A DNA stretch of 64,000 nucleotides from Pseudomonadota bacterium (lineage in GTDB: Bacteria; Pseudomonadota; Gammaproteobacteria; CALCKW01): assembly GCA_039196715.1 (NCBI GenBank), contig JBCCUP010000009.1:1-64000 (forward strand), in the 5' to 3' direction. Below the pieces are notes generated by a model, which was not told the origin of the DNA, did no database searches, and saw nothing but the letters and a program-made list of their open reading frames with translations. Numbering within the stretch: the first letter of the stretch is position 1; every line of letters begins with the position of its first letter. Made by a program: the position numbers and the translations under genes. This document shows positions 9,784-62,989 of the stretch, in pieces.

Positions 9784-9823
9784 GCTGGGCTCCCTTTCAT
9801 CAGAGCGTCAGGCTAGCGAAATA

Positions 9824-9837
9824 TGAAAACGTTTACA
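9824..9837. promoter_or_regulatory. LacI-family operator
   Basis: TGAAAACGTTTACA has a perfect 8-base core palindrome AAACGTTT with the central CG typical of LacI/GalR operators, and matches its own complement at 12 of 14 positions. It sits 41 bases upstream of the LacI-family gene start and about 60 bases upstream of the permease start, where it could control both. Confidence 0.7.
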
Positions 9838-9895
9838 TTTTTATTTTCACAATTACACTCCTGTGCATCCGAGCAGCGAGGGCCGGGCGGCACGC

Positions 9896-11851: not shown

Positions 11852-11867
11852 CGCTGACTGCGGGGCG

Positions 11868-11889
11868 TGTGGGGCCAGAACACCCCACA
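11868..11889 (+). other. intercistronic hairpin between permease and tctC
   Basis: Stem TGTGGGG (11868-11874) / CCCCACA (11883-11889), 8-base loop, no T-run. Such structures between transporter genes often protect or process the mRNA so that the binding protein is made in excess. Confidence 0.5.
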
Positions 11890-11972
11890 GCCCCCGGAGA
11901 CAGTTCAACGCCGGCGCGGGCGCGCAGCGACCGCGAAGGCACTTTTGGAACCAAGAGAGGGAGAACGAGAAG

Positions 11973-12935
11973 ATGAAAAAACTGATCCAGGCCGTCGCAC
12001 TGACGGCGGCCGCCGTACTGGCGGGTGGCGCGCACGCAGCCGAGTTTCCCGAGCGGCCCATTGGCGTGGCGGTGTCGTACGGCGCAGGCGGGGCAACCGA
12101 TTTCCAGGCGCGCATCGTGACCATGGTTGCGGGCAACGAGGACATGCTCGGGCAGCCCATGTACATCATCAACAAGCCCGGAGCTGGCGGTCGCGTGGGG
12201 TAGAACTGGTTTGCGAGCGAGGCTGACGCGGATGGCTACACGCTCTCGGCCTACAACGTGCCGCATTTCATTGCGCAATCGATCAAGGGGGGTGTGAAGT
12301 ACTCGGTCGACAGTTTTGAGCCGATCGCCAACTGGGGTGCCGATCCGGCCGTTGTCGTGGTCGGTGCGGACAGCCCGTACAACACCATCGGAGAGTTGGT
12401 CGACTTCGCCGCGGCGAACCCCGGCAAGGCCACACTTTCCGGCGCGGGTCTGTTTGTCGGGCACCACATCGCGGCACTGCAGCTCGAGAAATCAACCGGT
12501 GCCAAGTTCGCCTACATCCCGACCAAGGGCGGCGGTGCGGCAGCCATGAAAGCGGTCATCGCCGGCGACGTCATCGGTGGCATCAACAACCTCTCGGATG
12601 CGTTTCGTGCCCGTGAGGCGGGCAACGTGAAAATCCTCGCGGTCGCAGATCTGGAACGCAACGATTTCATGCCCGATGTGCCGACCCTGATGGAGTCCGG
12701 GTACGACGTCGACAACTCCTCGGTCAACTTCCGTGGCCTGATGGTGCCCAAAGGCACCCCGCAAGCGGTGATCCACACGCTCGCGGCGCAGGTGCCGGCG
12801 ATGTTCGGGCACAAGCGCGTGCAGAGTCGTATGCAAGCGGGCGGCTCACCGATGCGTGTGATGAGCCGTGAGGAAGTACAGGCCATGTGGGCAGAGCGCC
12901 AGAGCGCACTGGAGGTGTTGCTCGAGGGCCTGTGA
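11973..12935 (+). pseudogene. tctC-type substrate-binding protein interrupted by an in-frame amber codon
   Basis: The frame reads as one 320-residue TctC/Bug-family receptor except for TAG at codon 77 (12201-12203). Residues 1-23 are a signal peptide (MKKLIQAVALTAAAVLAGGAHAA). EFPERPIGVAVSYGAGGATD and INKPGAGGRVG come before the stop, and NWFASEADADGYTLSAYN and the rest follow in the same frame without any indel. GAGGGAGAACGAGAAG precedes the ATG. Neighbouring codons and composition are normal, so the break is recent, a sequencing error, or is suppressed. Truncated at residue 76 the protein could not fold; restart at the ATG at 12258 would lack the signal peptide. Trp (TGG), Gln (CAG) or Glu (GAG) are one base away from TAG. 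Confidence 0.8.
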
Positions 12936-12953
12936 TCCGTCGGATCCAGCCTG

Positions 12954-12986
12954 GACACGGGCTGCACCGCGCGTGCAGCCCGTGTC
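12954..12986 (+). other. strong intercistronic hairpin between tctC and the dehydrogenase gene
   Basis: Perfect 13-bp stem, GACACGGGCTGCA (12954-12966) with TGCAGCCCGTGTC (12974-12986), 7-base loop CCGCGCG, no T-run. It starts 18 bases after the tctC stop and ends 30 bases before the next start, so it could stabilise the upstream message or attenuate read-through into the catabolic genes. Confidence 0.7.
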
Positions 12987-13016
12987 TGTCGACAGCAATG
13001 GGGTAGGAAACATCAG

Positions 13017-14426
13017 GTGAGCGAACAGCAGGATATCGAGGCGGTTGACGCCATCGTCGCGCGCGCGCGCGCGGCCCAGGCACGCTATGCCGCGACGGCA
13101 AACCAGGACCAACTCCGATTGACCGTGCAGGCGGTGGCCTGGGCGCTGATGGAACCCGCGCGCAACCAGGCGCTGTCCGAACACGCCGTGGCGTCGACCG
13201 GGCTTGGCAATGTCGCGGACAAGGTGCGCAAGAACCACCGCAAGACCCTGGGGCTGATGCGCGATGTGCTCGCGGCAGCCACAACCGGCGTGGTGCGTGA
13301 GGACCCGGCGTCGGGCATCACCGAGATCGCGCGGCCGGTCGGCGTTGTTGGGGCTGTCGTGCCCTCGACCAACCCGGTGGCGACGCCGACCAACAACGTG
13401 ATCAATGCCCTGGCCTGTGGGAACGCGATCGTGCTGTCGCCCTCGCCGCGGGGGGCAGCGGTGTGTGAGCAGCTCATCGCCTACATACACGCCGAATTTG
13501 CCAAGATCGGCGCCGACCCGGATCTCGTGCAGATGGTGCCGGCGCCGTCATCCAAAGTGAAAACCCAGCACCTGATGGAGTCTGTCGATCTCCTGATTGT
13601 GACCGGCAGCCAGGACAACGTCCGCCGCGCCTACGCCTCCGGCACGCCGGCGATCGGCGTCGGTGCGGGAAATGTGTCCGTGATTGTCGACGGCAGCGGG
13701 GACCTCGATGCTGCCGCGGAGAAAATCGCGGCGTCCAAGAGTTTCGACAACGCCACGAGTTGTTCATCCGAGAATGCCCTGATCGTGCTCGATGCCGTCT
13801 ACGACGACATGCTCGCCGCCTTGCACCGTGCGGGTGGCCGTCTGCTGCAGGGTGCTGACGCTGCGGCCTTGCACGGTGCGCTGTTTCAGGCCCAGGGGCT
13901 CAACAAGCACCTGATCGCGCGCGATATCGACGTGCTTATCGCGGGCGTCGGCGTGTCTGTGCCCGACGCTGACACCGCGCGCTTCCTGCTGATCGAAGGC
14001 GACGGGGTCGGGGCGTCGCACCCCGAGTCGGGCGAGAAGCTCTCGCTGGTGACCACGCTCTACCGGGTGCCGGATTTCGATGCGGCGAAACGGCTCGCGA
14101 CGGCGTTGTTCACGCACGTGGGCGCAGGGCACTCGATCGGTCTGCACTCGGCGGACGAGCCGCGAGCACTCGAACTGGCGCGCGAGCTGCCGACGTGCCG
14201 CGTGATCGTCAACCAGGCGCACTGTTTTGCCACGGGCGGTTCCTTTGACAACGGCATGCCATTTTCGCTGTCGATGGGCTGCGGCAGTTGGGGCGGCAAT
14301 TCGATCGACGACAACTTGCACTACAAGCACTTCATGAACATCAGCAAGGTGGTACGCGTCATCCCGCCACGCGAGCCCAGCCTCGACGCGGTGTTCGAGC
14401 ACTACTGGGCCCACGCCGGGCGATGA
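13017..14426 (+). CDS. sauS: CoA-acylating sulfoacetaldehyde dehydrogenase (SauS-like)
   Basis: 469 residues from a GTG with GGTAGGAAA upstream. It belongs to the CoA-acylating aldehyde dehydrogenase branch (EutE/AdhE-N/SauS type): PSTNPVATPTNNVINALACGNA (about 116-137), nucleotide-site VTGSQDNVRRAYASGTPAIGVGAGN, and the catalytic Cys249 in FDNATSCSSENA. In the known pathway SauS reduces sulfoacetyl-CoA to sulfoacetaldehyde with NADPH in the cytoplasm. The assignment rests on coupling to an acyl-CoA ligase (ATGA overlap), to pta and to a carboxylate transporter. Another short acyl-CoA aldehyde is possible. Confidence 0.72.
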   Translation: MSEQQDIEAVDAIVARARAAQARYAATANQDQLRLTVQAVAWALMEPARNQALSEHAVASTGLGNVADKVRKNHRKTLGLMRDVLAAATTGVVREDPASGITEIARPVGVVGAVVPSTNPVATPTNNVINALACGNAIVLSPSPRGAAVCEQLIAYIHAEFAKIGADPDLVQMVPAPSSKVKTQHLMESVDLLIVTGSQDNVRRAYASGTPAIGVGAGNVSVIVDGSGDLDAAAEKIAASKSFDNATSCSSENALIVLDAVYDDMLAALHRAGGRLLQGADAAALHGALFQAQGLNKHLIARDIDVLIAGVGVSVPDADTARFLLIEGDGVGASHPESGEKLSLVTTLYRVPDFDAAKRLATALFTHVGAGHSIGLHSADEPRALELARELPTCRVIVNQAHCFATGGSFDNGMPFSLSMGCGSWGGNSIDDNLHYKHFMNISKVVRVIPPREPSLDAVFEHYWAHAGR

Positions 14427-15961
14427 ACGGCGACAGCGGCTGGACCGCAGCTTGGCTCGATGAGCTCGACGGCCTCTCGATTCACGCGCTGATCGAGCTG
14501 CGTGCGCGCCAGACAGGCGACGCCGTCTGGCTGATCGACCCCGAGGCGGGTACCACCTTGACGTACGCCGAGCTGCTGGCCGCGTGCCGGCGGGTGGCGG
14601 GGTTTCTCGACGCCGAAGGTGTGGCGATCGGTGCGAGCGTGGGCTTCGCGGCAGGCAACAGTGCCGACACAGCCGCGGTCGTGCTCGGGATCGCATTCGC
14701 CGGCCGGCGGGCAACGGCGATCAACCTGGTCGCCGGTGCCGACACCATCGACTACGTCGCGCACCACGCCGGGTGCGCACTGATCCTGCACGACGAGGCC
14801 GGACGCGAGGCGCTGCCGGACACGGTGGTGCAACGCACCCGACTGGCCAGCTGCAGTGATGCGCTCGCGGGCCCGCCGAGTACCGGCAGCGTTTCCGTCC
14901 CGCTGTCCAGCGACGGACTGTTGATGTACACCTCTGGCACCACCGGGCGACCCAAGGGTGTGCGGCTGAGCCATGGCAACTTGCTGGCAGGCGGCTGCAA
15001 CACGGCCGTGGCGCACCAGATCACGGCCGATGACCGTGCGCTTTGCGTGTTGCCCCTCTATCACATCAACGGACTGTGCGTGACGGTGTTTGCGCCACTG
15101 GTGTCCGGTGGCAGTGTGGTGATGCCGCCGCGCTTCTCCGTGAGCGCGTTCTGGAATTGGGTCGCGGCGCACCGCTGCACCTGGTTCTCGGTCGTGCCCA
15201 CTCAGATTTCCTGGTTGGTGCACGCCGAGCAGGGCCGTGTGATTGACGGCACCGATGCCTTGCGTTTCGGTCGCTCGGCTTCAGCGCCACTGTCGCCTGA
15301 CGTGCACCGCGCCTTCGAATCGCGGTTTGGTGTACCCATCATCGAGACCATGGGCTTGACCGAAACCGCGGCTCAGATCCTCTCTAACCCCATGCCACCA
15401 GGAAAATGCAAGCACGGTTCTCCGGGAGTGGCTGTGGGCAACGCGGTCGAGATCGTCGACACGCGCACCGGTGGGCGCTGTGACGTGGGCACGGAGGGGG
15501 AGATTCGCGTACGCGGTGCCAACGTGATGCAGGGCTACCTCGACAACCCGGAGGCCACGGCCGCCGCGCTCGGCAGCGACGGCTGGTTGTGCACCGGTGA
15601 CCTTGGGCGGATGGATGCCGATGGCTACGTGTTCGTCACAGGACGGTTGAAGGAGCTCATCATCAAGGGCGGCGAGAACATCGCGCCACGCGAGATCGAC
15701 GAAGCCCTGCTCACCCACCCTGACGTGATCGAAGCGGCGGCCTTTGCGCGGCCCTGCACGGATTTTGGCCAGCGTGTGGAAGCGGGTGTGGTGCTGCGTC
15801 CGTCTGCCGATTCGACGCCCGAGGCCTTGCGCGAGCACTGTGTCTCGCGGGTCGGTCTGTTCAAATCGCCCGACCGTGTGCACGTCCTTGACACCCTGCC
15901 CAAGGGGCCCTCCGGCAAGGTCCAGCGGCTCAAGTTGGCGGACGCACTCCACAGGCAGTGA
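14423..15961 (+). CDS. sauT: AMP-forming acyl-CoA ligase, probable sulfoacetate-CoA ligase (SauT-like)
   Basis: 512 residues of the ANL adenylating superfamily. The P-loop is [13 protein letters not shown] (about 169-181), A5 is [10 protein letters not shown]7 is [17 protein letters not shown]8 is [20 protein letters not shown], and the catalytic A10 lysine is in [10 protein letters not shown] near the C-terminus. The enzyme would activate a carboxylate with ATP and CoA, handing the thioester to the reductase encoded just upstream with an ATGA overlap. That ligase plus acylating reductase pairing is the SauT/SauS arrangement for sulfoacetate. Substrate inferred from context only. Confidence 0.68.
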
Positions 15962-15974
15962 GTCGCTTCAGGTC

Positions 15975-15991
15975 GGCGCGCTGTGCGCGCC
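15975..15991 (+). other. intercistronic hairpin between sauT and pta
   Basis: Perfect stem GGCGCGC (15975-15981) / GCGCGCC (15985-15991) with a TGT loop and no T-run. Third such structure in this cluster. TACACT at 16013-16018 downstream could be a -10 element for pta, but no good -35 was seen. Confidence 0.5.
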
Positions 15992-16046
15992 CGCGTGTCA
16001 GGCGCAACACGGTACACTGACGCTTTCGACGAGTACCTTGAGCACC

Positions 16047-17045
16047 ATGCCCCTTTTCGATCCCATTCTCGCGACTGCACGTCAGCAGCCCGGCCGCATC
16101 ATCCTGCCCGAAGGTGAAGACCCCCGGGTGATCTCCGCCGCAGCCGCAGCGCGTGATGACGGCACGGCCCTGCCGATCCTGTTGGGCGATGTCGCGGTGA
16201 TCCGCGACACTGCGCATGCTGCCGGTGTGTCACTGGACGGGGTCGATCTGCTGGATCTCGCGAGCGTCGCCGCGCGCGAGGACCTGGTGGACGCCGTGGT
16301 CGACCGCCGCAAGCACAAGGGCATGACGGCAGAGGCGGCCCGTTCGCACTTGTCCGACCCGGTGATCGCTGCGCTCGCGCTGTTGGCGGTCGAGGAAGCC
16401 GACGGCTTTGTCGGCGGTGCCGTGGCGTCCACGGCGCACGTGCTGCGGTGGGCCTTCGGCCTGATCGGGCGGGCAGACGGGGTCAAGCAGGTGTCGAGTT
16501 TCTTCCTGATGCTGCTCGAGCAACCGCACCACACCCCGCACGAGGCCGTCTTGTTCGCCGATTGCGCGCTGGTGATCGAGCCCGACGCGTCCGAGCTCGC
16601 GGGCATTGCCGAGGCCACCGGGCGGAGCGTGACGGCCTTGCTGGGCGACGAGCCGCGCATCGCGATGTTGTCGTTTTCGTCTGCCGGCAGCGCCGACCAC
16701 ACGCGGGTCGACACCGTACGCGAGGCGACAGCACTGGTGCGGGCTGCACAACCGGGGTGGAGCGTGGCCGGTGAGGTGCAGTTCGACGCCGCCTTTGTCC
16801 CCGATATTCTCGCGCGCAAGGCGCCCGACCTCGCACTTGGCGGCCGCGCCAACGTGTTCGTGTTTCCCAACCTCGACGCGGGCAACATCGGCTACAAGCT
16901 CGCCGAACGGCTCGGGGGCTGTGCCGCACTCGGTCCGGTGATTCAGGGCCTGGCGAAACCGGTCAATGACCTCTCTCGGGGGTGCTCAGCGGGCGACATC
17001 GAGGCGGTCATGGCGATCACCAGCGTCCAGGCGGCCGCGGGCTAG
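16047..17045 (+). CDS. pta: phosphate acetyltransferase, short catalytic form
   Basis: 332 residues, the PTA_PTB catalytic domain only, without the long N-terminal regulatory part of enterobacterial Pta. Family motifs include [15 protein letters not shown] (about 19-33), [79 protein letters not shown] and [17 protein letters not shown]. It interconverts acetyl phosphate and acetyl-CoA. This short form is the one that follows sulfoacetaldehyde acetyltransferase (Xsc) in sulfonate catabolism, drawing off acetyl phosphate. No Xsc gene is in the window, so it must be elsewhere or absent. Confidence 0.92.
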
Positions 17046-32665: not shown

Positions 32666-33643
32666 CTATGGTGCACCCTCTGGCTGCGTGTCAATCGCTG
32701 CCTGTCCGACGTCGCCCATCAACTGGACTATGTGATGCGCAAGGGTGCGGCGGGCCAGCGCTGCCACGGCCTCAGGCAGCTGACCGAGTACGCCCCCGCG
32801 CGCCACCACGGTGAGTGTCCGAGACAAGCCTGTCACCGGTAGCGGTACGACGCGCAGGCGCATGTGCTCGACCAGGCCGTCAATCAGCAGGGTGGGTGTC
32901 AGAAGGCTGAAGCCCATCCCGTTTGAAACGCACGCTGTCACCATGCTTGATCGGTCCGCTTGTACCACGCGTTTTGGGACGAAAGTCAGCCGCCTGAGAT
33001 GCTGTGTCGTTTGTTTTCCGACTTGCGTGCTGTCGGAAAACCGGATCAGGGGCAGCTTGGCCTGAATCGCCTCCAAACTGTCGGTTCGTCCACGGTAGTC
33101 AGAGGGCAGGACCAACAGAAAGGCCTCTTGCAGCACCGCATGCCGCTCTAGGCCGTCGAGGTCGTAGATCGGATTGGAGGTGATCGCCAGATCTGCCTGT
33201 TTTGTCCGAAGCAAGCGCTCGTGGTCACCGCTCTGGCCGGCATGCAGACTGACGTCCTGCACGCCGAATTCGGATCTTGCGAGTGCAACCAGGCCAGGGG
33301 TGAGTGTGGTCGCGATGGATGCTTGCAGACCGACTCGTAGCACATTGATCGGACGCGGCCCAAGCCTGCGCATTTCCGATTCCATGGTGGCCAAGGCGTC
33401 AATGACGCTCGTCGCCTGGGCGTGCAGGCGCGCGCCGGCCTGGGTGAGCCGCACCGGTCGTGTCGCGCGGTCAAGCAGCTCGACGCCGTAGGCCTTCTCC
33501 AGGCGGGCGATGTGTTGGGAGGCGGCGGGTTGGGTGAGCCCGAGCAACGAGGCGCCGGCGCGCATCTGTCCGGTTTCTGCAACGGCCACCAGGACTTCGA
33601 GGGAACGCAATAACCCCGGACTGAATTGACGTGACCTTGGCAT
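32666..33643 (-). CDS. LysR-family regulator divergent from the demethylation operon
   Basis: 325 residues. The helix-turn-helix is AGASLLGLTQPAASQHIARLEKAYGVELLDR (about 28-58), slightly degenerate at its start (ETGQMRAGAS). The effector domain (from about 95) begins NVLRVGLQASIATTLTPGLVALARS and has VSNGMGFSLLTPTLL near residue 240. It is transcribed away from the methyltransferase operon with 97 bases between, the classic LysR arrangement, so it most likely activates that operon in response to the substrate or a demethylated product. Confidence 0.88.
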   Translation of the reverse strand: MPRSRQFSPGLLRSLEVLVAVAETGQMRAGASLLGLTQPAASQHIARLEKAYGVELLDRATRPVRLTQAGARLHAQATSVIDALATMESEMRRLGPRPINVLRVGLQASIATTLTPGLVALARSEFGVQDVSLHAGQSGDHERLLRTKQADLAITSNPIYDLDGLERHAVLQEAFLLVLPSDYRGRTDSLEAIQAKLPLIRFSDSTQVGKQTTQHLRRLTFVPKRVVQADRSSMVTACVSNGMGFSLLTPTLLIDGLVEHMRLRVVPLPVTGLSRTLTVVARGGVLGQLPEAVAALARRTLAHHIVQLMGDVGQAAIDTQPEGAP

Positions 33644-33668
33644 AACCGCCTGCAGCGACAGAGTATAA

Positions 33669-33695
33669 ATAATTCTGATACTACGTGATTGTTAT
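33669..33695. promoter_or_regulatory. possible LysR binding site
   Basis: ATAATTCTGA (33669-33678) and TGATTGTTAT (33686-33695) are inverted arms matching at 6 of 10 positions, with the outer ATAA/TTAT exact, in the gap between lysR and the methyltransferase gene. TATAAAT at 33664-33670 on the same spot may be a -10 element. Plausible position, weak symmetry. Confidence 0.3.
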
Positions 33696-33740: not shown

Positions 33741-35270
33741 GTGGTCGAAAAACCGGCAAAGCGACGGCGAAGGAAGGTGAGTGACAGGCCTGTGCTCGGG
33801 ACGAGGGCACCCTATCTGATGCGCGGCCTGACGCCACAGAACGCGCTCAGTGAGGAAGGCCTGGCCACCATCGAGCACAACGCCGACACCATCCTGGCCG
33901 AAATCGGAATGGACTTTGTCGACGACCCGGAGGTTTTGACGACGTTTGCCAACGCCGGTTGCGAGGTTGACGGCACGCGTGTGCGGTTCGAACCGGGTTT
34001 TTGCCGTCGCACGATCTCGGCGACGGCGCCAAAGCAGTTTGTCCAACACGCACGCAACCCCGCAAATTCGGTGCAGATGGGGGGCAACGCGACGGTGCTG
34101 TGTCCGTCTTGGGGGCCGCCGTTCGTGCACGATATCGAGCGGGGTAGACGCTATGCTTCCCTCGCAGATTTCGACACGCTGGTGAAGTTGCACCACAGTT
34201 TGCCGTGGCTGCACCACTCCGGCGGGGTGGTATGTGAACCGGTGGATCTGCCGGCGAACAAGCGCCACCTCGACATGCTCTACAGCCATATCCGTTTCTC
34301 GGATCGGGCCTTCATGGGTGCGTTCATTGGCGCCGAGCGCGCCGGGCACGCGATCGACATGGCGAGAATCGTGTTCGGCGAGGCTTACGTCCAGGACAAT
34401 GCGGTCTTGTATTGTGTCTCGAACACCAATGCGCCGCTGGTTATGGACGCCAACATGTCCGGGGCGCTGAAGACCTACGCCAGGGCGAATCAGCCCGTGG
34501 CGTGTACGCCCTGGGTGCTGACCGGTGCGATGAGCCCGTGCACGGTTGCAGGCACATTGGCTCAAGTGCTGGCGGAAGCGCTCGCGTGTCTCAGCCTGGT
34601 GCAGCTGATCAAACCGGGTGCGCCGTGCCTGATGGGGTCGTTCGCATCCACCCTCTCGATGCAAACGGGTGCGCCCACCTTCGGCAGTCCTGAAGCCGGG
34701 TTGATGGTGCTGGCGGCCGGTCAGTTGGCGAGGCGCCTCGGCGTGCCGTTGCACACGGTCGGGACCCTGACATCGTCCAAGTTGCCTGATGCACAGAGCC
34801 AGCAAGAAGGGACCTGGGGGCTGCTGATGGCGCTGTCTGCCGGGGCGAATGTGGTGAACCACGCGACAGGGTGGCTCGAGGGCGGCTTGGTGACGTCGTT
34901 CGAGAAAACCCTGCTGGACCACGATCTGTGCGGCAAGTTGTGCCGGTTTTTCGAGGGCATCGATCTCAGTGAAAACGCCCAGGCCATGGATGCGATTTCA
35001 GCCACTGGACCGGGCCAGCATTTTCTCGGTTCCGAGCACACCCAGGCCAACTTCATGGACGCGTTGTTTCGGCCGCTTGCCGCTGACGACACCGCCTACG
35101 AACACTGGCTGGATGCGGGCGCCGAAGACGCCGCCACGCGTGCGGGTGGGCTGTGGCGAACGCAACTGGCGTCGTACCGCGACCCCGGCCTGGATGCGGA
35201 TGTCGACGCGGCGTTGCAGGCCTACATCACCAGGCGAAAATCAGAACAACCGGACAGGAACTACTTCTGA
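33741..35270 (+). CDS. MttB-family (trimethylamine methyltransferase-like) protein without pyrrolysine
   Basis: 509 residues from a GTG with GGAGGG upstream. The MttB fold is recognisable (PFVHDIERGRRYASLADFDTLVKL, HSGGVVCEPVDLPANKRHLDMLYSHI, TPWVLTGAMSPCTVAGTLAQVLAEALACLSLVQLIKPGAPC). The reading frame has no internal TAG, so it belongs to the large non-pyrrolysine group that includes glycine-betaine methyltransferase. Such enzymes transfer a methyl group from a quaternary or tertiary amine to a cob(I)alamin protein. No corrinoid-protein gene is adjacent. First gene of the operon; its TGA overlaps the next ATG. Confidence 0.88.
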   Translation: MVEKPAKRRRRKVSDRPVLGTRAPYLMRGLTPQNALSEEGLATIEHNADTILAEIGMDFVDDPEVLTTFANAGCEVDGTRVRFEPGFCRRTISATAPKQFVQHARNPANSVQMGGNATVLCPSWGPPFVHDIERGRRYASLADFDTLVKLHHSLPWLHHSGGVVCEPVDLPANKRHLDMLYSHIRFSDRAFMGAFIGAERAGHAIDMARIVFGEAYVQDNAVLYCVSNTNAPLVMDANMSGALKTYARANQPVACTPWVLTGAMSPCTVAGTLAQVLAEALACLSLVQLIKPGAPCLMGSFASTLSMQTGAPTFGSPEAGLMVLAAGQLARRLGVPLHTVGTLTSSKLPDAQSQQEGTWGLLMALSAGANVVNHATGWLEGGLVTSFEKTLLDHDLCGKLCRFFEGIDLSENAQAMDAISATGPGQHFLGSEHTQANFMDALFRPLAADDTAYEHWLDAGAEDAATRAGGLWRTQLASYRDPGLDADVDAALQAYITRRKSEQPDRNYF

Positions 35271-37654
35271 TGCGCGTGATTGTGGTCGGCGGTGGTGCGG
35301 TGGGGTTGAGTGTGGCCTACCACCTCGCGCTTCGCGGCGGCTGCGATGTGACCCTGCTCGAACGGAACCAACTCAGCTCCGGCACGTCGTGGCACGCGGC
35401 GGGCATTGTGGGGCCCTTGCGTGCGACGCCCGGGATGACGACGTTGGCCAACTACGCGCGTGCCCTCTTTCCGAGACTGGAACGGGAAACGGGGCTCGCG
35501 ACGGGGTACCGTCAGACGGGTGGCTACTGGCTGGCGCGTCATCCGGCTCGGCTCGACGAGCTGCACCGGATTGCCAGTGTGGGACGGGTGTCGGGCTTGT
35601 TGTCACGGGTGGTCGATTGCGAGGAGATCGCCATAGCGGGGCTCGAGCTGTCCGATCACCTGGGTGCGTTGCATGTGCCGGAAGACGGCAACGTGAACCC
35701 GGTGGACTTGTGTCAAGCCTACGCACGCGCCGCGGTGCAACGCGGCGTCAGTGTGCGTGAACACTGTGGTGTGGCGGGGCTCTGCGTCGCTGGCGGGCGC
35801 GTTGTCGGTGTCGAGCTGCTCGACGGCAGTCGGCTCGAGGCCGATGCCGTCGCACTGTGCACCGGCGCGTGGACACGCGAACTTGCCGCATCCTGTGGGG
35901 TTGCTGTGCCACTGCAGGCTGTCGAACACATGTACGTCGTGACCGAGCCCATCGCGGGGCTGCCTGACCCCTTCCCCGTGGTGCGGGACCTGGATTCGGG
36001 CATCTACCTCAAAGGGGATGCGGGCCGACTCGTTCTCGGTGGCTTCGAGCCGAATGCCATTTGTTGGGATCCGTACGGTGCGGCCGGCGACACGCCGTTT
36101 CTTGAACTGCCCGATAACTGGACGCAATTCGAACCTTTTATGGAGGCCGCCCTCGCACTGATGCCGACGTTGGCCGACGTCGGCATTCAGCGATTCATGA
36201 ACGGTCCTGAGAGCTTCACGGCCGATTCGCGGCCCTTGATTGGCCAGTGCAACGAACTCGATCAGCTGTTCGTGGCTGCCGGTATGAATTCCGTGGGCGT
36301 GATGAGCTCGGCCGGTGTGGGGCGCTTGCTCGCAAACTGGATCCTTGACGGGCGCGCCGACACCGATGCCTGGGACGTGGATGTCGCGCGCGTGGACCCG
36401 CTCGTGGCCTCGACGGCGCACATGGCGACGCGCATGCAGGAAGCGGTTGCGGACGTGTTTGCGCTGCATTGGCCTTACAAACAGCCCTCTGCCGGCCGTG
36501 ACCTCAGGCGCTCGGCCCTGCACACACGGTGGGCAGACGCCGGCGCGGTGTTCGGCCTGACTGGCGGTTGGGAGCGGGGATTGTGGTATGCAAAGGTGCC
36601 CGCAGAGCGGCGACTGCCCTACAGCGTGTCGGCTCAGCCCTGGCAAGGTATCGCCGCGCGCGAGGCGGCCGAGTTGTCCACCGGGACAGCGCTGCTGGAT
36701 CTTTCGCCGTTTTGCAAACTGGCGCTGTCGGGTTCAGGCGTGCTCGAGGGGCTCAATTGGCTCTCCTGCGCCGAGCTCGATGTGGCCGTGGGCTGTTCGG
36801 TGTACACGCAATTGCTCAACCGCGAAGGCGGCATCGAGATGGACGTGACCGTCACGCGACGGGGCGGGAATCGCTTCGATATCACCTCGGGCGCGGCGAC
36901 CCGCTGGCGCGACCGTGCCTGGTTGCGGCGTCAGTTGCCCGCGTCGGTCCGCATCGATGATGTCAGCGACGCCTATTGCGTGATCGGCGTCATGGGTGCC
37001 GGCAGTCGAGTGCTGCTTGGCAGCCTGTCGAGCGATTGGCAGCCGGGCGCCTTTGGCAGCGTCTCGGACGCCACGGTCGCCGGTGTGCGGTGCCGCGTGA
37101 CACGGCGCAGTTTCGTCGGGTCGCTCGGCTGGGAGGTGAGCGTGGCAGTGGAAGACGCTGTCACGGTCTTCGACGCGTTGGTGGCCGGCGGGGCGCAGGC
37201 AATGGGCCACTACGCCGTAGACGCGTGCCGAATCGAGAAGGGCTTCAAACACTGGGGGCACGACCTGGGCCCGACACTCACGCCGCTCGAAGCGGATCTT
37301 GGATTCTGTGTTGATTGGCAATCCGACTTTCAGGGCAAGACGGTCCTGGAGGCGCAACGCGACAGTGGCCTCACGCGCCGACTGCAACTGATGGCGGTGG
37401 AGGGTGCGCCGCTGTTGTTGCACGACGAGCCGATCTTCGAGTCCGGCACTTGGGTCGGCGTGTCCACGTCAGGTGCTATCGGTGCGCGTACCGGACTGGC
37501 TCTGTGTTTCGCGTTGCTCGATGTGGCCCCGGGAGAGTCGCGTCGTGACACGGTCCGGCGTCGATTCGAGATTGAGGTGGCCGGTGCGCGCTACGCCGCT
37601 CGCGCCTTGGCCCGCCCACCGTTTGATCCACGTGGTTTGGAGATGCGCGCATGA
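35270..37654 (+). CDS. FAD/GcvT demethylating dehydrogenase 1 (dimethylglycine/sarcosine dehydrogenase type)
   Basis: 794 residues. Residues 1-380 are a DAO-type FAD domain (VIVVGGGAVGLSVAYHLA at 3-20, SGTSWHAAGIVGP near 37-50). The latter motif contains the His that carries covalent FAD in mitochondrial dimethylglycine dehydrogenase. The middle FAO_M-type segment includes FALHWPYKQPSAGRDLRRSAL and GGWERGLWY, and the C-terminal ~380 residues are a GcvT tetrahydrofolate aminomethyltransferase domain (DVTVTRRGGNRFDITSGA, YAVDACRIEKGFKHWGHDL, GARTGLALCFALLDV). It oxidises an N-methyl amine and passes the C1 unit to folate. Coupled at both ends by start-stop overlap. Confidence 0.88.
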   Translation: MRVIVVGGGAVGLSVAYHLALRGGCDVTLLERNQLSSGTSWHAAGIVGPLRATPGMTTLANYARALFPRLERETGLATGYRQTGGYWLARHPARLDELHRIASVGRVSGLLSRVVDCEEIAIAGLELSDHLGALHVPEDGNVNPVDLCQAYARAAVQRGVSVREHCGVAGLCVAGGRVVGVELLDGSRLEADAVALCTGAWTRELAASCGVAVPLQAVEHMYVVTEPIAGLPDPFPVVRDLDSGIYLKGDAGRLVLGGFEPNAICWDPYGAAGDTPFLELPDNWTQFEPFMEAALALMPTLADVGIQRFMNGPESFTADSRPLIGQCNELDQLFVAAGMNSVGVMSSAGVGRLLANWILDGRADTDAWDVDVARVDPLVASTAHMATRMQEAVADVFALHWPYKQPSAGRDLRRSALHTRWADAGAVFGLTGGWERGLWYAKVPAERRLPYSVSAQPWQGIAAREAAELSTGTALLDLSPFCKLALSGSGVLEGLNWLSCAELDVAVGCSVYTQLLNREGGIEMDVTVTRRGGNRFDITSGAATRWRDRAWLRRQLPASVRIDDVSDAYCVIGVMGAGSRVLLGSLSSDWQPGAFGSVSDATVAGVRCRVTRRSFVGSLGWEVSVAVEDAVTVFDALVAGGAQAMGHYAVDACRIEKGFKHWGHDLGPTLTPLEADLGFCVDWQSDFQGKTVLEAQRDSGLTRRLQLMAVEGAPLLLHDEPIFESGTWVGVSTSGAIGARTGLALCFALLDVAPGESRRDTVRRRFEIEVAGARYAARALARPPFDPRGLEMRA

Positions 37655-40053
37655 ACAGGGCACAGGTCGTTGTCATCGGGGGCGGTGCGATGGGTGTGTC
37701 GCTGATCTACCACCTGGTCAAGATGGGCTGGTCCGATGTCGTGCTGGCCGAGAAGAATGACCTCACGCACGGCTCGACCTGGCATGCCGCGGGTCTGTGT
37801 ACCCACTTTGCCCACAACGCCACGATCCAGGCCCTGCGCGCGACTTCGGTACGCCTGTACCGCGACACCTTGCCTGAGGAGACGGGCCAGAGTTGCGGAT
37901 TTCATGCCTGCGGTGCGATGCGCGTGACCACAAACTCGGATCGACTCGACGAGTTTGCCCATGTTGCTGGTCTCTCCGCGTTCACAGGTCACCCACTCGA
38001 GCTTCTGACCCCGGATCGCATCGCCGAGCTCCACCCCCTGGCGCGGCTGGACGGTCTGCTTGGCGGGATACACGAGCCCGATGACGGTCACGTCGACCCC
38101 ACGCTCGCGACCACGGCCATGGCCACAGTTGCCGCGTCCGGCGGGGCGAGCATTCAACGGCAAAACGCGGTGCACGCCATCGTGCGGGAGTCCGGCAAGT
38201 GGCGCGTTGAGACGGAGCGGGGAACCATTGAAACGCGGCATGTGGTCAACGCCGCTGGCACGTGGGGATGGGAAGTCGGCCACATGATGGGTCTCAACAT
38301 TCCGTCGGTGCCGGTATTGCATCAATACCTCGTGACCGAGCGCGTCGACGCCGTTTCAGAGCGTCAAGCGGCTGGGCTGGATGAACTGCCTATCATCCGT
38401 GACCCCGAGGAGAGCTGGTACGTCCGCCAGGAACGCGATGGGCTGATTCTCGGTCCCTACGAGACAGCGGCCCAGGTCTGGTCGGTTGACGGCTGCCCGC
38501 CCGACTTCGGCGCCGATTTGCTGCCGCCCGAACTCGATCGGGTTGAGCACATCATCGACGCAGCGCTGGCCCGGATTCCGGCCCTGGGCACGGCGGGTGT
38601 TCGGACGGTGATCAACGGGCCAATCACCTTCACACCCGATGCGAACCCGCTGATCGGCCCGGCCCATGGTCTTGAGAACGCGTGGCTGCTGACCGGGTCG
38701 TCCATGGGTGTGATGGAAGGCGGTGGTGCGGGCTGGTTTCTCGCGCACTGGATGACCCACGGTGCGCCGCCGATGGACGCCCTCGCCGTCGACAGTCGCC
38801 GATTCGGGGCCTGGGCGGACCGAGACTACCGTGTGGCCAAGGCGATCGAGTGCTTCGGCTTGCAATTTGGGGTGCACTATCCCTACGAGGAGCGACCTGC
38901 CGCGCGCGATCGGCGACTGACACCGCTGCATGCAGCCATGAAGGCACGCGGCGCGGTCATGGGCTGTGTGCACGGTTGGGAACGCCCGAACGGGTTCACG
39001 GCAGGCGGCGTGGATCCGTATCGGCCGCACTTTCGCGACCGGGGCTGGCGTGCCGTGGTCGCGCGCGAGGCCGAGGCGGTGTCCGAACGGGTTGCGCTGG
39101 CTGACGTGTCGGTCTTCGCCAAGTTCGAGGTTAGCGGCGTAGAAACAGAGGCCTTTCTCGATGAGTTGGGCGCCAATGCCCCCCCGCGGCCAGGGCGCGT
39201 CGGGCTGATTCACGCACTGACACCGGCCGGTGGGGTCGCGTCTGAATTCACCGTCGCGCGCCTGACGCCAGACCTGGCCTACCTCACCGCTGCTGCAGCG
39301 GCCGAGGAACACGACGCGGATCGGTTGATGGCGCATGCCAGCACCCGCACTGTCGAGTTGCGGAACGTCACCGTCGAGTGGGCCGTGATCGGTGTCATGG
39401 GGCCCTTGTCGCGCAGGCTGATCGCACGGCTCACCGACGTGGACCTCGAAACCGGCTTTCCGTGGTTGACCGTGCAGTGCATCGCGGTGGCGGACATCCC
39501 GGTGCGTGCGCTTCGGGTGTCGTACCTCGGCGAACTGGGCTGGGAGCTGCACGTGCGCGCCGACGAGGCCGAGCGGCTGTTGCGGGCGCTCGAGCGCGCG
39601 GGGGAGGGGCTCGGGCTAGGCTACTACGGTGCACACGCCGCCAATGCACTGCGGCTCGAGAAGGGCTACCGAGCGTGGGGCGCGGACCTGACAACGGAGC
39701 GAACACCGCTTGAAGCGGGATTGCAGCGTTTCGTGAAAGTCGACGGTCGTGGGTTTGTCGGGCGTGAGGCGATGCTCTCGCGTGTCGACCCCTGGGACAT
39801 GGTCTTGTTGGAGATCGACATCAGCGACACCGAGCCCTTTTACACCCACACGGTCTGGCAGCACGGGACACCCGTGGGCGTGATCACCTCCGCGGCGCAC
39901 GGCCCCCGTACAGGGAAAACGCTGGCACTCGCCTATCTGCGCGAACCTTCCGCCCGGGCTGGACTGAGCGTGGATGTGCTCGGCGCACGCTATGCCGCGC
40001 GCGTGCTCGACCAGGTGCCGTACGACCCCGCCAACCACCGACTCACGGGATAG
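37651..40053 (+). CDS. FAD/GcvT demethylating dehydrogenase 2, paralogue of the preceding gene
   Basis: 800 residues with the same architecture: FAD motif VVIGGGAMGVSLIYHLVKMG (about 6-25), THGSTWHAAGLCTH with the covalent-FAD-type His, HYPYEERPAARDRRLTPLH and HGWERPNGF in the middle, and the GcvT domain ending YGAHAANALRLEKGYRAWGADLTTERTPLEAG. It diverges strongly from its neighbour outside these motifs, as expected if the two act on different substrates, for example dimethyl and monomethyl amines. ATGA overlap with the preceding gene and 6 bases before the aminotransferase gene. Confidence 0.88.
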   Translation: MNRAQVVVIGGGAMGVSLIYHLVKMGWSDVVLAEKNDLTHGSTWHAAGLCTHFAHNATIQALRATSVRLYRDTLPEETGQSCGFHACGAMRVTTNSDRLDEFAHVAGLSAFTGHPLELLTPDRIAELHPLARLDGLLGGIHEPDDGHVDPTLATTAMATVAASGGASIQRQNAVHAIVRESGKWRVETERGTIETRHVVNAAGTWGWEVGHMMGLNIPSVPVLHQYLVTERVDAVSERQAAGLDELPIIRDPEESWYVRQERDGLILGPYETAAQVWSVDGCPPDFGADLLPPELDRVEHIIDAALARIPALGTAGVRTVINGPITFTPDANPLIGPAHGLENAWLLTGSSMGVMEGGGAGWFLAHWMTHGAPPMDALAVDSRRFGAWADRDYRVAKAIECFGLQFGVHYPYEERPAARDRRLTPLHAAMKARGAVMGCVHGWERPNGFTAGGVDPYRPHFRDRGWRAVVAREAEAVSERVALADVSVFAKFEVSGVETEAFLDELGANAPPRPGRVGLIHALTPAGGVASEFTVARLTPDLAYLTAAAAAEEHDADRLMAHASTRTVELRNVTVEWAVIGVMGPLSRRLIARLTDVDLETGFPWLTVQCIAVADIPVRALRVSYLGELGWELHVRADEAERLLRALERAGEGLGLGYYGAHAANALRLEKGYRAWGADLTTERTPLEAGLQRFVKVDGRGFVGREAMLSRVDPWDMVLLEIDISDTEPFYTHTVWQHGTPVGVITSAAHGPRTGKTLALAYLREPSARAGLSVDVLGARYAARVLDQVPYDPANHRLTG

Positions 40054-40059
40054 AACAGG

Positions 40060-41367
40060 ATGAACGACGCAACGCCAGAACTGGATTGGTCACTCTCGGG
40101 CACGGCGGCGCGGCGCGAACGCTACTACGCGTCCAGCCAGCGCAAGTTCGTTCCCTTTGCCGACCCCCTGGTGTTTCAACGTGGCCAGGGGCAGTACCTC
40201 TGGGACAACGAAGACGCGCGGTACACCGACCTGCTCGGTATGAACGTGTGCATCTCGGTGGGACACTCGCACCCGCGCGTGGTCGGGGCTGCGATGCAAC
40301 AAGCGCAAGACCTGACCCATTGCACCACCATGTTCTATCACCCCGCGCCGGCCCACCTGGCTGAAGAGTTGGCTGCGCGCATGCCGGTCGGGCACGAGTG
40401 GGTCGTGCACTTCACCAACTCCGGCGCCGAGGCGATTGACCTCGCTATGACCATGGCACGCACGTACACCGGCCACCTCGACCTGCTGGCGCTGCGCACG
40501 GCTTACCACGGCCCGACCGCGGCGGCGCAATCGGTCACCGGCATTGCTTCGTGGCGTCACCCGGGGATGCCGGGTCACGTGAGTTTTGTTGCCGACCCCA
40601 ATCAATACCGCGGCGTGTTCGGTGCGACAACGGAGCCGTACCTCGATGAGATCGAGCGCGCCATCGCCACGTCCACGCAAGGCCAGGTCGCCGGCATGCT
40701 CATCGAAAGCGTGCAGGGTTACGGTGGCATCGTCGAGATGCCACCGGGTTACCTCTCCGGTGCTGCCGAGCGGGTGCGCGCGGCGGGAGGACTCTACATC
40801 GCCGATGAAGTGCAATCGGGTTTCGGGCGCACCGGGGACCACTTCTGGGGATTCCAGGCCGATGGGGTGGTGCCTGACATCGTGGTCATGGCCAAGGGCC
40901 TCGGCAACGGCTTCCCGATCGGCGCCGTGGTCGCGCGCAAGGCCATTGCCGCACCCATGGCCGAGAAGTTTCTGTTTCACACCTACGGCGCCAACCCGAC
41001 CAGCTGCGCGGCGGCACGCGCCGTGTTGCAGGTGCTCGACGACGAGGGCTTGCAAGCCAACGCGCGGACCGTCGGGTCGGCGTTGCTTGCTCGGCTTCAT
41101 GAGCTCAAGGCGCGTCACGCCGCGATCGGCGACGTGCGGGGACGGGGGTTGATGCTAGCGATTGAGATCGTGTCGGACCGGGAGACCAAAGCCCCCGATC
41201 CCGCTGCCACGGCCAGGGTGTTCGAGCGCTGCCGGGAGCACCGCATCATCCTGTCGAAATCCGGGCCGACGCAATCGGTGTTGAGAATGGTGCCGCCCTT
41301 GTGTTTGACGCTGGACGACGTGGATGCTGTCGCTGACGCGCTGGATCGGGCCTTCTCCGAGACGTGA
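40060..41367 (+). CDS. class III (omega-type) aminotransferase
   Basis: 435 residues, PLP-dependent fold type I, AGXT2/omega-aminotransferase group. GVHFTN-type motif as VVHFTNSGAEAIDLAM (about 113-128), YIADEVQSGFGRTGDHFWGF with the PLP-ring Asp (about 247-266), the Schiff-base Lys in VVMAKGLGNGFPIGAVV (about 276-292), and HTYGANPTSCAAARAVL. These enzymes act on a primary amine far from, or in place of, the alpha position: beta-alanine, GABA, 3-aminoisobutyrate, or the alanine/glyoxylate pair. Last gene of the demethylation operon, where it would receive the fully demethylated amine. Confidence 0.88.
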   Translation: MNDATPELDWSLSGTAARRERYYASSQRKFVPFADPLVFQRGQGQYLWDNEDARYTDLLGMNVCISVGHSHPRVVGAAMQQAQDLTHCTTMFYHPAPAHLAEELAARMPVGHEWVVHFTNSGAEAIDLAMTMARTYTGHLDLLALRTAYHGPTAAAQSVTGIASWRHPGMPGHVSFVADPNQYRGVFGATTEPYLDEIERAIATSTQGQVAGMLIESVQGYGGIVEMPPGYLSGAAERVRAAGGLYIADEVQSGFGRTGDHFWGFQADGVVPDIVVMAKGLGNGFPIGAVVARKAIAAPMAEKFLFHTYGANPTSCAAARAVLQVLDDEGLQANARTVGSALLARLHELKARHAAIGDVRGRGLMLAIEIVSDRETKAPDPAATARVFERCREHRIILSKSGPTQSVLRMVPPLCLTLDDVDAVADALDRAFSET

Positions 41368-45884: not shown

Positions 45885-47372
45885 TCACAGCAGGAAACCC
45901 GCGGGCGCCGAAATGGAGTGCGGCTCGGCAAAAGCCAGGACGCCGTCGTAGCCCAGGTTCCGGCCGACGCCTGAATGCTTGAACCCGCCAAAGGGACCAC
46001 GCCCGTCCTGGGCCATGGGTCCGTGCCCGTTGAGGTAGGTGTAACCGGCCTCCAACTGGCGTGCCATCCTGACCGCGCGCTCCGCGTCAGTGGACCACAC
46101 CGACGAACACAAGCCGTAGTCGCTGTCGTTGGCGCGTGCAACCACATCGTCGTCGTCACGGAACGACATGATCGGCAAGGCTGGACCGAACTGTTCCTCG
46201 CGCACGATCGAAAGACTCGGGTCGGCGTCGTAGACCAGCGTGGGGCGTTGAAAATAGCCGCCGCCGGCGTACAGCTCGGGGTCCGGCACCTGGCCACACT
46301 CGCGCACATCGGCACCCGCGGCCCGTGCTTCGGCGATCATGCCGGTCACGACCGCGAGCTGACGTGCGTTGTTCACCGGTCCCATGGTGGTGTCGGGCAA
46401 CAGACCGTCGCCGATGACAGCACGGTCGCAGGCGGCGGTGAGCCCGTCGACCACCTCGTCGTAGCGGCGCTCGTGGACGTAGAGGCGCTTGATCGCCATG
46501 CAGATCTGGCCGGACGAGCCGAAGGCGCCCCAGTACAGTCGGTCAAACACCGCGTCATCGAGTTCGGCATCCTCGAGCACGATTGCCGGGTCGTTCCCAC
46601 CGAGCTCGAGCGTCACCGGTGTCAGGTTGTTTGCCGCCGATTTCATCACGCGTTTACCGACCTTCACCGAGCCGGTGAAATTGACTCGCCGCACCAGCGG
46701 GTGGCTGGTGAGCGGGTCACCGATGCGCACCCCGTCGCCCGTGATCACGTTGACCACACCCGGCGGGAGGAGCGCGGCCAGTTTGCTCAGTGTCAGAGTC
46801 GGGGCGAGCGCGGCGAACTCCGAGACCTTGACGACGACCGTGTTACCGGTGACCAGCGCTTGCGGCAGCTTGGCACCGAGGATCGACAGCGGCCAGTTCC
46901 AGGGCACGATCAGGGCGGCGACGCCGGCGGCCTGGCGGGTCACCACGGTGTCGAAGGGTGGGCCCTTGATTTCCTCGTCGATGGCGATGCGGTCGCCGTA
47001 GTCAGCTACCTGGCGGAAACGGTCGCCAAGCCGCGTCATCTCGAGCAGGGTCTCGCGGGCGATCTTGCCATGCTCGCGCGTGAACAGCCGTGATCGGTTC
47101 GCAACGTCGTCCGCGTCTGCCGCGAGGGCCTCGGCAACCTGCCGCAGCCGCTCTGCGCGCTCACCATGCGACAGTCGCGACCAAGCCGGAAACGCAGCGT
47201 GCGCAGCGCGCACTGCGTCGTCGACATCCTCTGCACTGGCATCTGCGGCGTACCCGACGAGTTCGGTCGGTCGCGCCGGGTTGTGGATTGCGTAGGACGC
47301 GTTCCCGTGTGCCGGGCGTCGGCCGCCGTTGATGAACAACCCGGTCGTCGTGGTCTCGGCTGACTGTGTCAT
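45885..47372 (-). CDS. aldehyde dehydrogenase
   Basis: 495 residues, standard size. PWNWP (157-161) has the catalytic Asn, ELGGNDP (256-262) the general base Glu257, and GQICMAIKR (288-296) the nucleophile Cys291. REEQFGPALPIMSF and PFGGFKHSGVGRNLG are also in place. It oxidises an aldehyde to the acid with NAD(P)+. The close sequence type is the broad aliphatic/aromatic group, and the partner SDR downstream on the same strand suggests a shared substrate. Confidence 0.9.
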   Translation of the reverse strand: MTQSAETTTTGLFINGGRRPAHGNASYAIHNPARPTELVGYAADASAEDVDDAVRAAHAAFPAWSRLSHGERAERLRQVAEALAADADDVANRSRLFTREHGKIARETLLEMTRLGDRFRQVADYGDRIAIDEEIKGPPFDTVVTRQAAGVAALIVPWNWPLSILGAKLPQALVTGNTVVVKVSEFAALAPTLTLSKLAALLPPGVVNVITGDGVRIGDPLTSHPLVRRVNFTGSVKVGKRVMKSAANNLTPVTLELGGNDPAIVLEDAELDDAVFDRLYWGAFGSSGQICMAIKRLYVHERRYDEVVDGLTAACDRAVIGDGLLPDTTMGPVNNARQLAVVTGMIAEARAAGADVRECGQVPDPELYAGGGYFQRPTLVYDADPSLSIVREEQFGPALPIMSFRDDDDVVARANDSDYGLCSSVWSTDAERAVRMARQLEAGYTYLNGHGPMAQDGRGPFGGFKHSGVGRNLGYDGVLAFAEPHSISAPAGFLL

Positions 47373-61318: not shown

Positions 61319-62989
61319 TCAGCGCGTCAGACTGGGTAAATTCAACTGGTGCGCCTGCGCACAGGTGATGGCGTCCTCGTACCCGGCGTCCGCGTGGCGC
61401 ATCACGCCGGTCGCTGGGTCGTTCCAGAGCACGCGCGCGATACGCGCGTCGGCGGCTTCGCTGCCGTCGCAGCAGATCACCATGCCGGCGTGCTGCGAGT
61501 AACCCATGCCCACGCCCCCGCCGTGGTGGATCGACACCCAGGTCGCACCCGAGGCGCAATTGAGCAGGGCGTTGAGCAACGGCCAGTCCGACACGGCGTC
61601 CGACCCGTCCTGCATGGCCTCGGTCTCGCGGTTCGGCGAGGCGACCGAACCGGAGTCGAGGTGGTCCCGTCCGATCACGACCGGTGCCGACAACTCGCCG
61701 TTGCGCACCATCTCGTTGAAGGCCAGCCCCAGGCGGTCGCGTTGGCCCAATCCCACCCAGCAGATCCGCGCTGGCAGGCCCTGGAATGCAATACGCTCGC
61801 GTGCCATGTCGAGCCAGCGGTGCAGGTGCGCGTCGTCCGGAATGAGTTCCTTGACCTTCGCGTCGGTCTTGTAGATGTCCTCGGGGTCGCCTGACAACGC
61901 GGCCCAGCGAAACGGGCCGATACCGCGGCAGAACAGCGGTCGGATGTACGCCGGCACAAACCCCGGGAAACTGAAGGCCTCGGTGAAGCCGGCGTCATCG
62001 GCGACCTGGCGGATGTTGTTGCCGTAGTCGAAGGTCGGGACGCCGGCGGCCTTGAACGCCGCCATGGCCTCGACGTGGGTGCGCATCGAGGCGGTGGCCG
62101 CAGCGACCACCGACGCCGGGTCCCGTTCACGGGCGTCGCGCCACGCCGCGAGGCTCCAACCCTGGGGCAGGTACCCGTTGGCCGGATCGTGGGCAGAGGT
62201 TTGATCGGTCAGCAGATCCGGTCGCACGCCGCGCGCAAGCAGTTCGGGCAGCACGTCTGCGGCGTTGCCCAGCAAACCGATGGATTTGGCTTCGCCCGCG
62301 GCGGTCCAGCGCGCGATGGTGTCGAGTGCATGGTCGAGTGAGTCGGTGCGCTCGTCGAGGTAGCGCGTCTTGAGGCGTGCGTCGATCCGGCTGCTGTCGC
62401 ATTCGACCGCGAGGCAACACGCGCCGGCCATCACGGCGGCGAGTGGCTGGGCGCCGCCCATGCCACCGAGGCCTGCGGTCAACACCCACCGGCCTTGCAA
62501 ATCGCCTCCGTAGTGCTGGCGGCCGGCCTCGACAAAGGTCTCGTACGTGCCCTGAACGATGCCCTGCGTGCCGATGTAGATCCACGACCCGGCCGTCATC
62601 TGGCCGTACATCGCCAGGCCCTTGCGATCGAGTTCGTTGAAGTGATCCCAGGTGGCCCAGTGCGGCACGAGGTTGGAGTTGGCGATCAGCACGCGCGGCG
62701 CATCGACGTGGGTGCGAAACACGCCCACGGGTTTGCCCGATTGCACCAGCAGGGTTTCGTCGTCGTCGAGGTGAGTGAGCGTCTCGACAATGCGGTCGAA
62801 GGCCGGCCAGTCGCGCGCGGCGCGGCCGATGCCACCGTAGACCACCAGGTCCTCGGGGTGCTCGGCGACCTCCGGGTGCAGGTTGTTCATCAGCATGCGA
62901 AGCGGGGCTTCGGTCGACCACGACCGGGCGGTGAGTGCGCTGCCGGTCGGCGGTATGACGGTGCGGAGGTTATGGCGGGAATCGGTCAT
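61319..62989 (-). CDS. hutU: urocanate hydratase
   Basis: 556 residues, standard length. The family blocks are clear: [75 protein letters not shown] (tight NAD+ binding), [50 protein letters not shown] and [23 protein letters not shown]. It hydrates urocanate to imidazolone propionate, step 2 of histidine breakdown in the cytoplasm. It overlaps the hutH stop by 4 bases (ATGA). Confidence 0.97.

Follow-up and report, generated by a model that had tools for sequence, protein, structure and literature searches.

A conserved four-gene operon with a candidate role in the catabolism of a trimethylated amine other than glycine betaine

The operon, its regulator and its relatives

The window analysed here – a stretch of 64,000 nucleotides from contig 9 of a 4.95 Mb Pseudomonadota assembly (169 pieces, 96% complete) – carries four genes on one strand that encode an MttB-superfamily methyltransferase (MttB), two flavin adenine dinucleotide (FAD)/GcvT-type dehydrogenases (FAD1 and FAD2) and a class III aminotransferase (AT) dependent on pyridoxal phosphate (PLP), with a LysR-family gene diverging from them (Table 1). 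Coordinates and Pfam families bear out the original prediction of a four-gene operon under a divergent LysR, and the families of all five genes are those that it had named: FAD1 and FAD2 each carry DAO, FAO_M, GCV_T and GCV_T_C, and AT matches Aminotran_3 (PF00202) with 289 bits. MttB begins with GTG. FAD1 and FAD2 overlap by four bases at ATGA and six bases separate FAD2 from AT, as described earlier; the MttB/FAD1 junction, for which an ATGA-type overlap had likewise been given, is a one-base overlap at TGATG. Among the NCBIfam matches listed, all four proteins fall under the cut-off of every model.

Table 1. Coordinates of the operon, its regulator and the associated inverted repeat in the window
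Feature	Position	Strand	Basis
LysR-family regulator	32666..33643	-	PF00126/PF03466 (helix-turn-helix and substrate domain); divergent from operon
LysR-type operator-like inverted repeat, AGTAT-N11-ATACT	33662..33682		Sole match in window
MttB, MttB-superfamily non-pyrrolysine quaternary-amine:corrinoid methyltransferase	33741..35270	+	PF06253, 633 bits; monophyletic clade; His338 at DhMtgB R309
FAD1, covalent-FAD/GcvT-type N-methyl dehydrogenase, MABO-containing clade	35270..37654	+	Pfam, tree, catalytic residues
FAD2, dimethylglycine-dehydrogenase-like covalent-FAD/GcvT enzyme	37651..40053	+	632 bits to rat DMGDH, tree, catalytic residues
AT, class III PLP aminotransferase	40060..41367	+	PF00202; K279/R409 invariant in 21 rows; without phospholyase motifs

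The four-gene set is a conserved module, kept together in many marine bacteria. Evidence for this came from the survey of gene neighbourhoods that had been proposed as a check. A single scan of genome contigs gave at least 575 confirmed relatives of MttB, the best 80 of which were used; the open frames of every locus were compared, and partner genes were counted at 40% identity or more to the window proteins. Where MttB is at least 72% identical (36 loci), the order MttB–FAD1–FAD2–AT on one strand is kept at all 31 loci with at least 6.3 kb of downstream DNA – the remaining five have less – and it is this constancy that makes the operon more than chance. Close relationship among many of these loci – several are from Ruegeria, Roseovarius and Nioella – means that they do not amount to 31 independent events; the set also covers Granulosicoccaceae and Chromatiales metagenome-assembled genomes and Aestuariivirga. 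The overlap between FAD1 and FAD2 is exactly four bases in 30 of the 36 loci measured.

More distant relatives show other arrangements. Those of the ten loci with MttB at 58–71% identity are mixed: AT diverges from MttB–FAD1–FAD2 in two (L056, L058) and from MttB–FAD1, at a contig end, in a third (L059); the order is FAD1–FAD2–MttB in L048 and L052, and L060 has MttB–FAD1. At 50–55% identity the full set occurs in none of 34 loci, 22 of which have at least 6.3 kb downstream. The sole partner there to reach 40% is a minus-strand FAD2-like gene (L074, 43%); weaker FAD or AT matches (26–43%) lie somewhere in 15 of the 34, L074 included, and L093 holds a distant MttB–FAD–FAD group. On a Mesorhizobium plasmid (AT 64%) and in genome G214 (AT 67%) AT diverges from FAD1–FAD2–MttB. 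With the arrangement of L056, L058 and, as far as its contig reaches, L059, the same four genes thus persist together in two rearranged versions. Among 321 genomes sampled from the class, two have an AT orthologue – G214 and the genome of the window itself – which makes the module patchy and co-occurrence statistics impossible; it is absent from the three genus mates listed in that sample, and the family sample around G214 comprises two genomes, one with AT.

Both the window and 28 of the 46 loci that make up the two closer groups (hereafter the clade loci) have a divergent LysR-like N-terminus no more than 700 bases from MttB. The inverted repeat between the two genes was found in none of 100 shuffles of the window, and its spacing is one usual for LysR sites. 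Across the 29 LysR/MttB gaps – which come from related genomes and hence are non-independent – it is exact in 12 and keeps at least eight of its ten letters in 20; mononucleotide shuffles of the gaps retain eight or more letters in 3.9% of cases and all ten in 1 of 5800. The repeat is a likely operator, through which the divergent LysR may regulate the operon.

Enzymes, substrate pocket and methyl acceptor

That MttB is of the non-pyrrolysine kind, as predicted, is evident from its PF06253 score, set against a cut-off of 25, from a score for TIGR02369 (the equivalog of the pyrrolysine-type trimethylamine enzyme) that lies below its cut-off, 244 versus 525, and from an uninterrupted frame free of in-frame amber codons; ending as it does in TGA, this plain frame leaves no pyrrolysine codon to be read through. 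The protein belongs to a clade of 48 rows (the 46 clade loci, the Mesorhizobium plasmid and the window) in an alignment of 93, a single branch with a long stem and full support in the approximate likelihood ratio test (SH-aLRT), placed beside a group that holds SmMttB and C7, another copy from the same genome.

The nature of the substrate turns on the pocket. In DhMtgB, Y94, N199, R309 and H345 are the predicted contacts of glycine betaine, with R309 for the carboxylate (PMC6855144); these positions were located in 2qne by a constant offset of 19, and residue type fits at all five positions checked. At R309 every one of the 48 clade rows has His, whereas Arg is found in all 34 rows at 50–55% identity, in SmMttB, in DhMtgB and in seven of the nine other MttB copies of the genome, C7 included; the other two, C2 and C44, have Gly. 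The Y94 position is Trp in 44 of the 48. The window protein keeps N199 and H345 and has Trp and His in place of Y94 and R309, and so departs from the MtgB signature. This exchange of Arg for His speaks against glycine betaine as the substrate, without indicating which other compound takes its place. What individual residues do in MtyB or in MttB structures was also looked up in the literature, with no usable result.

The same residues bear on whether this could be a second glycine-betaine operon, in which MttB would produce dimethylglycine, the dehydrogenases sarcosine and then glycine, and AT would be of the alanine/glyoxylate type. The closeness of FAD2 to DMGDH (632 bits) would suit such a route, as would the fact that glycine betaine is what R. 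pomeroyi demethylates (PMC12478193), but the Arg predicted to hold the carboxylate is lost throughout the clade and kept in C7 and in the whole 50–55% group, and FAD1 groups with MABO. Moreover, glycine breakdown is not known to require a transaminase. We judge a second glycine-betaine operon decidedly unlikely.

Ten MttB genes occur in the genome, six of which (C2, C9, C10, C32, C44 and C57) have a DMGDH-type FAO_M gene no more than 2 kb away; there are 13 such FAO_M genes in total, and modules of MttB and dehydrogenase are thus a recurring theme. Two of the six, C2 (L016 4980-6557) and C44 (L017 7552-9084), are very distant copies without any predicted betaine contact, with Glu at H345 besides the Gly at R309, and both adjoin DMGDH-like genes.

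A corrinoid partner for MttB, sought in the genome at large, was found on contig C15. The 96% complete assembly has one B12-binding_2 (PF02607) corrinoid-protein match, and within 6 kb of sequence (65.5-71.2 kb) it is accompanied by DUF1638, Pterin_bind and RamA-type RACo_C_ter genes, with a serine dehydratase gene alongside; the genome therefore holds the corrinoid protein, DUF1638 protein, pterin methyltransferase and RamA of an mtgC/mtgD hub. According to PMC12478193 (PNAS 2025), glycine-betaine demethylation in R. pomeroyi relies on a single corrinoid protein, MtgC, together with the pterin methyltransferase MtgD; RamA and DUF1638 proteins are more abundant, and up to seven MttB-like genes may serve diverse compounds. 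Given the hub on C15, the partners missing from the operon would come from a shared source of this kind.

The two dehydrogenases prove to be diverged and folate-linked, as had been claimed. A quick tree of 45 rows, with no SARDH row, places FAD2 inside the DMGDH clade (support 100) and FAD1, which scores 324 bits against DMGO and 302 against human DMGDH, with C14, C20 and C21 of the same genome and an Arthrobacter MABO, in an 18-row group (SH-aLRT 95) whose inner order is unresolved. As the MABO reference we used a gene on a plasmid of Arthrobacter ZXY-2 that has purU, folD, gabD, an amine oxidase gene and one for a PmfR-named regulator around it; its identification rests on this neighbourhood, a layout that we take to be that of nicotine plasmid pAO1. 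The covalent-flavin His and the His225/Tyr259 dyad are intact in 15 of 15 chosen rows of each enzyme; the folate-site acid is D in 13 and E in two FAD1 rows and E in all 15 FAD2 rows, as in rat DMGDH. This acid belongs to the folate site, and 3gsi is its Ala mutant. In domains and residues alike both proteins are DMGDH-type folate-linked dehydrogenases.

The tree also bears on the order of the steps. Gene order had been read as reaction order, a reading that finds no support: MABO acts on a monomethyl substrate and DMGDH on a dimethyl one, so the groupings of FAD1 and FAD2 point to 1-3-2-4 as the probable sequence – MttB, FAD2, FAD1 and then the aminotransferase. FAD1 may alternatively be SARDH-like, the tree having no SARDH reference.

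Relatives of FAD1 stand in clusters of their own. In C14 (L104 4993-9493) a BKACE gene and one for a class III aminotransferase come directly after the FAD/GcvT gene in the listed order. C20 (L108 6819-15346) is a MABO-like FAD/GcvT gene near genes for a TctA transporter, a PuuC-like aldehyde dehydrogenase, an APH kinase and a class III protein with phospholyase motifs, possibly a kinase/phospholyase route for an N-methylated hydroxyamine.

AT has PF00202 and, invariant in an alignment of 21 rows, K279 and R409, which we take to be the catalytic Lys and the Arg for the acceptor carboxylate; it is thus a class III aminotransferase. Its nearest solved sequences are ETNPPL (297 bits) and the phospholyase A1RDF1 (232), followed by racemases and epimerases (198–220) and GABA transaminases (about 195). 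A phosphocholine route comes to mind, in which three demethylations would precede an ethanolamine-phosphate phospho-lyase reaction yielding acetaldehyde, ammonia and phosphate: human ETNPPL is the best solved match in fold as well (Z 40.6), and MthB of Eubacterium limosum, an MttB homologue, demethylates phosphocholine (PMC12155760). The motifs speak otherwise. ETNPPL, A1RDF1 and the class III paralogue at C20 share NNVxHVGH, GKPMGNGHP and LK – motifs that, we infer, define phospholyase activity – but AT reads MNVCISVGH, AKGLGNGFP and LR, the Lys of LK being the invariant Arg409. The motif AKGxGNGFP is, we believe, common to AT and AGXT2-type transaminases. GABA transaminases, at Z 39.9, are tied with ETNPPL in fold score, so that the fold comparison, made with an AlphaFold model of mean predicted local distance difference test score (pLDDT) 74 (low in 26-65, 148-156, 163-171 and 306-309), decides nothing. 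The phosphocholine route is accordingly very improbable, and the absence of phospholyase motifs sustains the assignment of AT as a transaminase type.

Trimethylated alpha-amino acids – lysine, alanine or homoserine betaine – would make AT a transaminase or racemase that acts at the alpha-amine, a role compatible with racemases and epimerases of the same fold among its nearest solved relatives and with R409, which would suit an alpha-carboxylate. Such an Arg is expected in any transaminase with a 2-oxoacid acceptor, and no neighbouring gene was seen that indicates an alpha-amino acid; this alternative is unlikely.

A proposed pathway and its weak points

Our preferred reading, to which we assign a probability of roughly 0.6, is a LysR-controlled catabolic operon whose substrate is an N,N,N-trimethylated amine, but not glycine betaine, and whose aerobic pathway closes with a transamination. 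MttB would move the first methyl to the genome's one corrinoid protein, of MtgC type, from which an MtgD-type enzyme would hand it to tetrahydrofolate; DMGDH-like FAD2 would then oxidise the dimethylamine and MABO-like FAD1 the monomethylamine, each loading methylene-tetrahydrofolate; and the class III enzyme would convert the resulting primary amine by transamination into an aldehyde or a keto acid. The likeliest substrates are, in falling order, gamma-butyrobetaine, beta-alanine betaine, delta-valerobetaine and another betaine. MABO acts on an omega-N-methylamino acid, and the kinship of FAD1 with it weakly favours an omega-amino-acid betaine, which is plausible. The case is weakened, and left undecided, by AT itself: it scores 244 bits against TIGR00700, the GABA transaminase equivalog with a cut-off of 506.65, and has Pro or Ala at the position of GabT Arg141, presumably the Arg used for GABA, which lends a GABA-like substrate grip by AT no support.

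Several observations weigh against the proposed pathway. Four of the ten loci at 58–71% identity (L051, L053, L055 and L061) carry MttB without any partner enzyme beside it, and these, together with L052, lack AT despite at least 6.3 kb of sequence on at least one side. His at R309 is found in the same four clade members, and the role of R309 rests on docking rather than on a bound structure (PMC6855144). MABO and DMGO form long branches in the quick tree, itself without a SARDH row. The paralogue nearest to FAD2 in the genome, C71 (support 87), has Rieske and MR_MLE genes around it, a cluster suggestive of proline-betaine breakdown rather than omega-amino-acid use. Pfam scans revealed no betaine transporter among 37 window proteins, where the carriers present are EamA, LysE, MFS and TctA/TctC, and no conserved transporter among 120 flanking proteins, scanned out of 134 chosen from 31 of the 46 clade loci. 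A recurring Sulfotransfer_5 gene, finally, has no place in the proposed scheme. Thirteen of the 46 clade loci (L022, L023, L025, L029, L032, L037, L039, L040, L041, L042, L043, L047 and L058) have it, next to the operon or within it; its products are about 250 aa long and form one sequence cluster, and at eight of these loci the gene lies between MttB and FAD1 but is read from the opposite strand.

Among the flanking proteins Sulfotransfer_5 (9) and ABC_tran (5) are the commonest families, and the rest of the 25 families listed, out of 153, reach at most three. One flanking protein is a BCCT; an OpuAC binding protein and ABC ATPase adjoin the module in L048, and on the Mesorhizobium plasmid its neighbour is a betaine ABC transporter. 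Betaine-type transporters next to the module in a few relatives support the betaine reading. Two further candidates fell away: the extra gene that certain relatives have between MttB and FAD1, considered as a corrinoid protein, is the minus-strand Sulfotransfer_5 gene, and the aldehyde dehydrogenase gene at 45885-47372, considered for the semialdehyde step, has no match in the DNA available for loci L018-L063.

Other gene groups were seen in passing. The C71 cluster (L107 86-10081) brings together a Rieske oxygenase, an RpiR regulator, the DMGDH-like FAD gene, a zinc alcohol dehydrogenase and an MR_MLE enzyme, a set that we regard as reminiscent of proline-betaine catabolism; at the contig end lies a Sulfotransfer_5 gene that shares 35% identity with its counterparts next to the operon in relatives. 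On the Mesorhizobium plasmid (L099 5957-9537) Amidohydro_2 and small Rieske protein genes lie upstream of the betaine ABC transporter genes; the group also includes genes for a hybrid-cluster oxidoreductase and a divergent LysR. Within the window, a LacI-type regulator, TctA, TctC, Aldedh, an AMP-binding enzyme and PTA_PTB stand in a row (8758-17045) in what looks like another catabolic cluster; at the window end (61319-63912) urocanase adjoins a gene for a histidine ammonia-lyase-like member of the aromatic amino acid lyases, and a search for tRNA genes found none.

Comparison with known systems

The original prediction knew of no described pathway with this gene set, and we met none: the open-licence papers listed in our literature searches, mostly at the level of title and abstract, describe no operon with MttB, two dehydrogenases and an aminotransferase. 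Whether the locus encodes a complete, undescribed aerobic marine pathway for a betaine other than glycine betaine – one LysR unit, a re-tooled carboxylate site in MttB and a shared corrinoid protein – is in our estimation an even call. The matter is of some consequence: marine bacteria hold many MttB copies of unknown substrate, a point raised in the Discussion of the R. pomeroyi study (PMC12478193). For one such MttB the operon supplies a full downstream enzyme set, a residue signature, and a regulator together with its likely operator, which opens the search for its substrate to growth and enzyme assays; if the proposal is true, it adds a route by which nitrogen is released from a marine osmolyte.

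Parts of the scheme have precedents. MtyB, MtcB and MthB of Eubacterium limosum (PMC8604678, PMC12155760) are MttB-superfamily enzymes for other quaternary amines, but belong to an anaerobic acetogen, and the available text of these papers describes single-methyl transfers and mentions no aminotransferase. The MABO branch of nicotine breakdown in Arthrobacter has a DMGDH-type enzyme of the FAD1 clade, named gamma-N-methylaminobutyrate oxidase in PMC10590968; it differs in starting from nicotine, in having gabD and an amine oxidase nearby, and in the Arthrobacter stretch examined has neither MttB nor a second dehydrogenase. PbfC and PbfD, encoded beside the 2-aminoethylphosphonate (AEP) transaminase PhnW (PMC10590968), are likewise FAD enzymes, through which N-methylated amines gain entry to a pathway that a transaminase serves in other cases, but they act on phosphonates and form the aldehyde directly, and MttB goes unmentioned in the available part of that paper.

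The closest parallel is MtgBCD of Ruegeria pomeroyi, as far as the accessible text of PMC12478193 describes it. Shared are an MttB-family enzyme, a single corrinoid protein with DUF1638, pterin methyltransferase and RamA, and the passage of later methyls into folate via other enzymes. The present MttB, in contrast, comes from another clade, in which His replaces the Arg predicted to position the carboxylate, and its operon adds a dedicated dehydrogenase pair and an aminotransferase.

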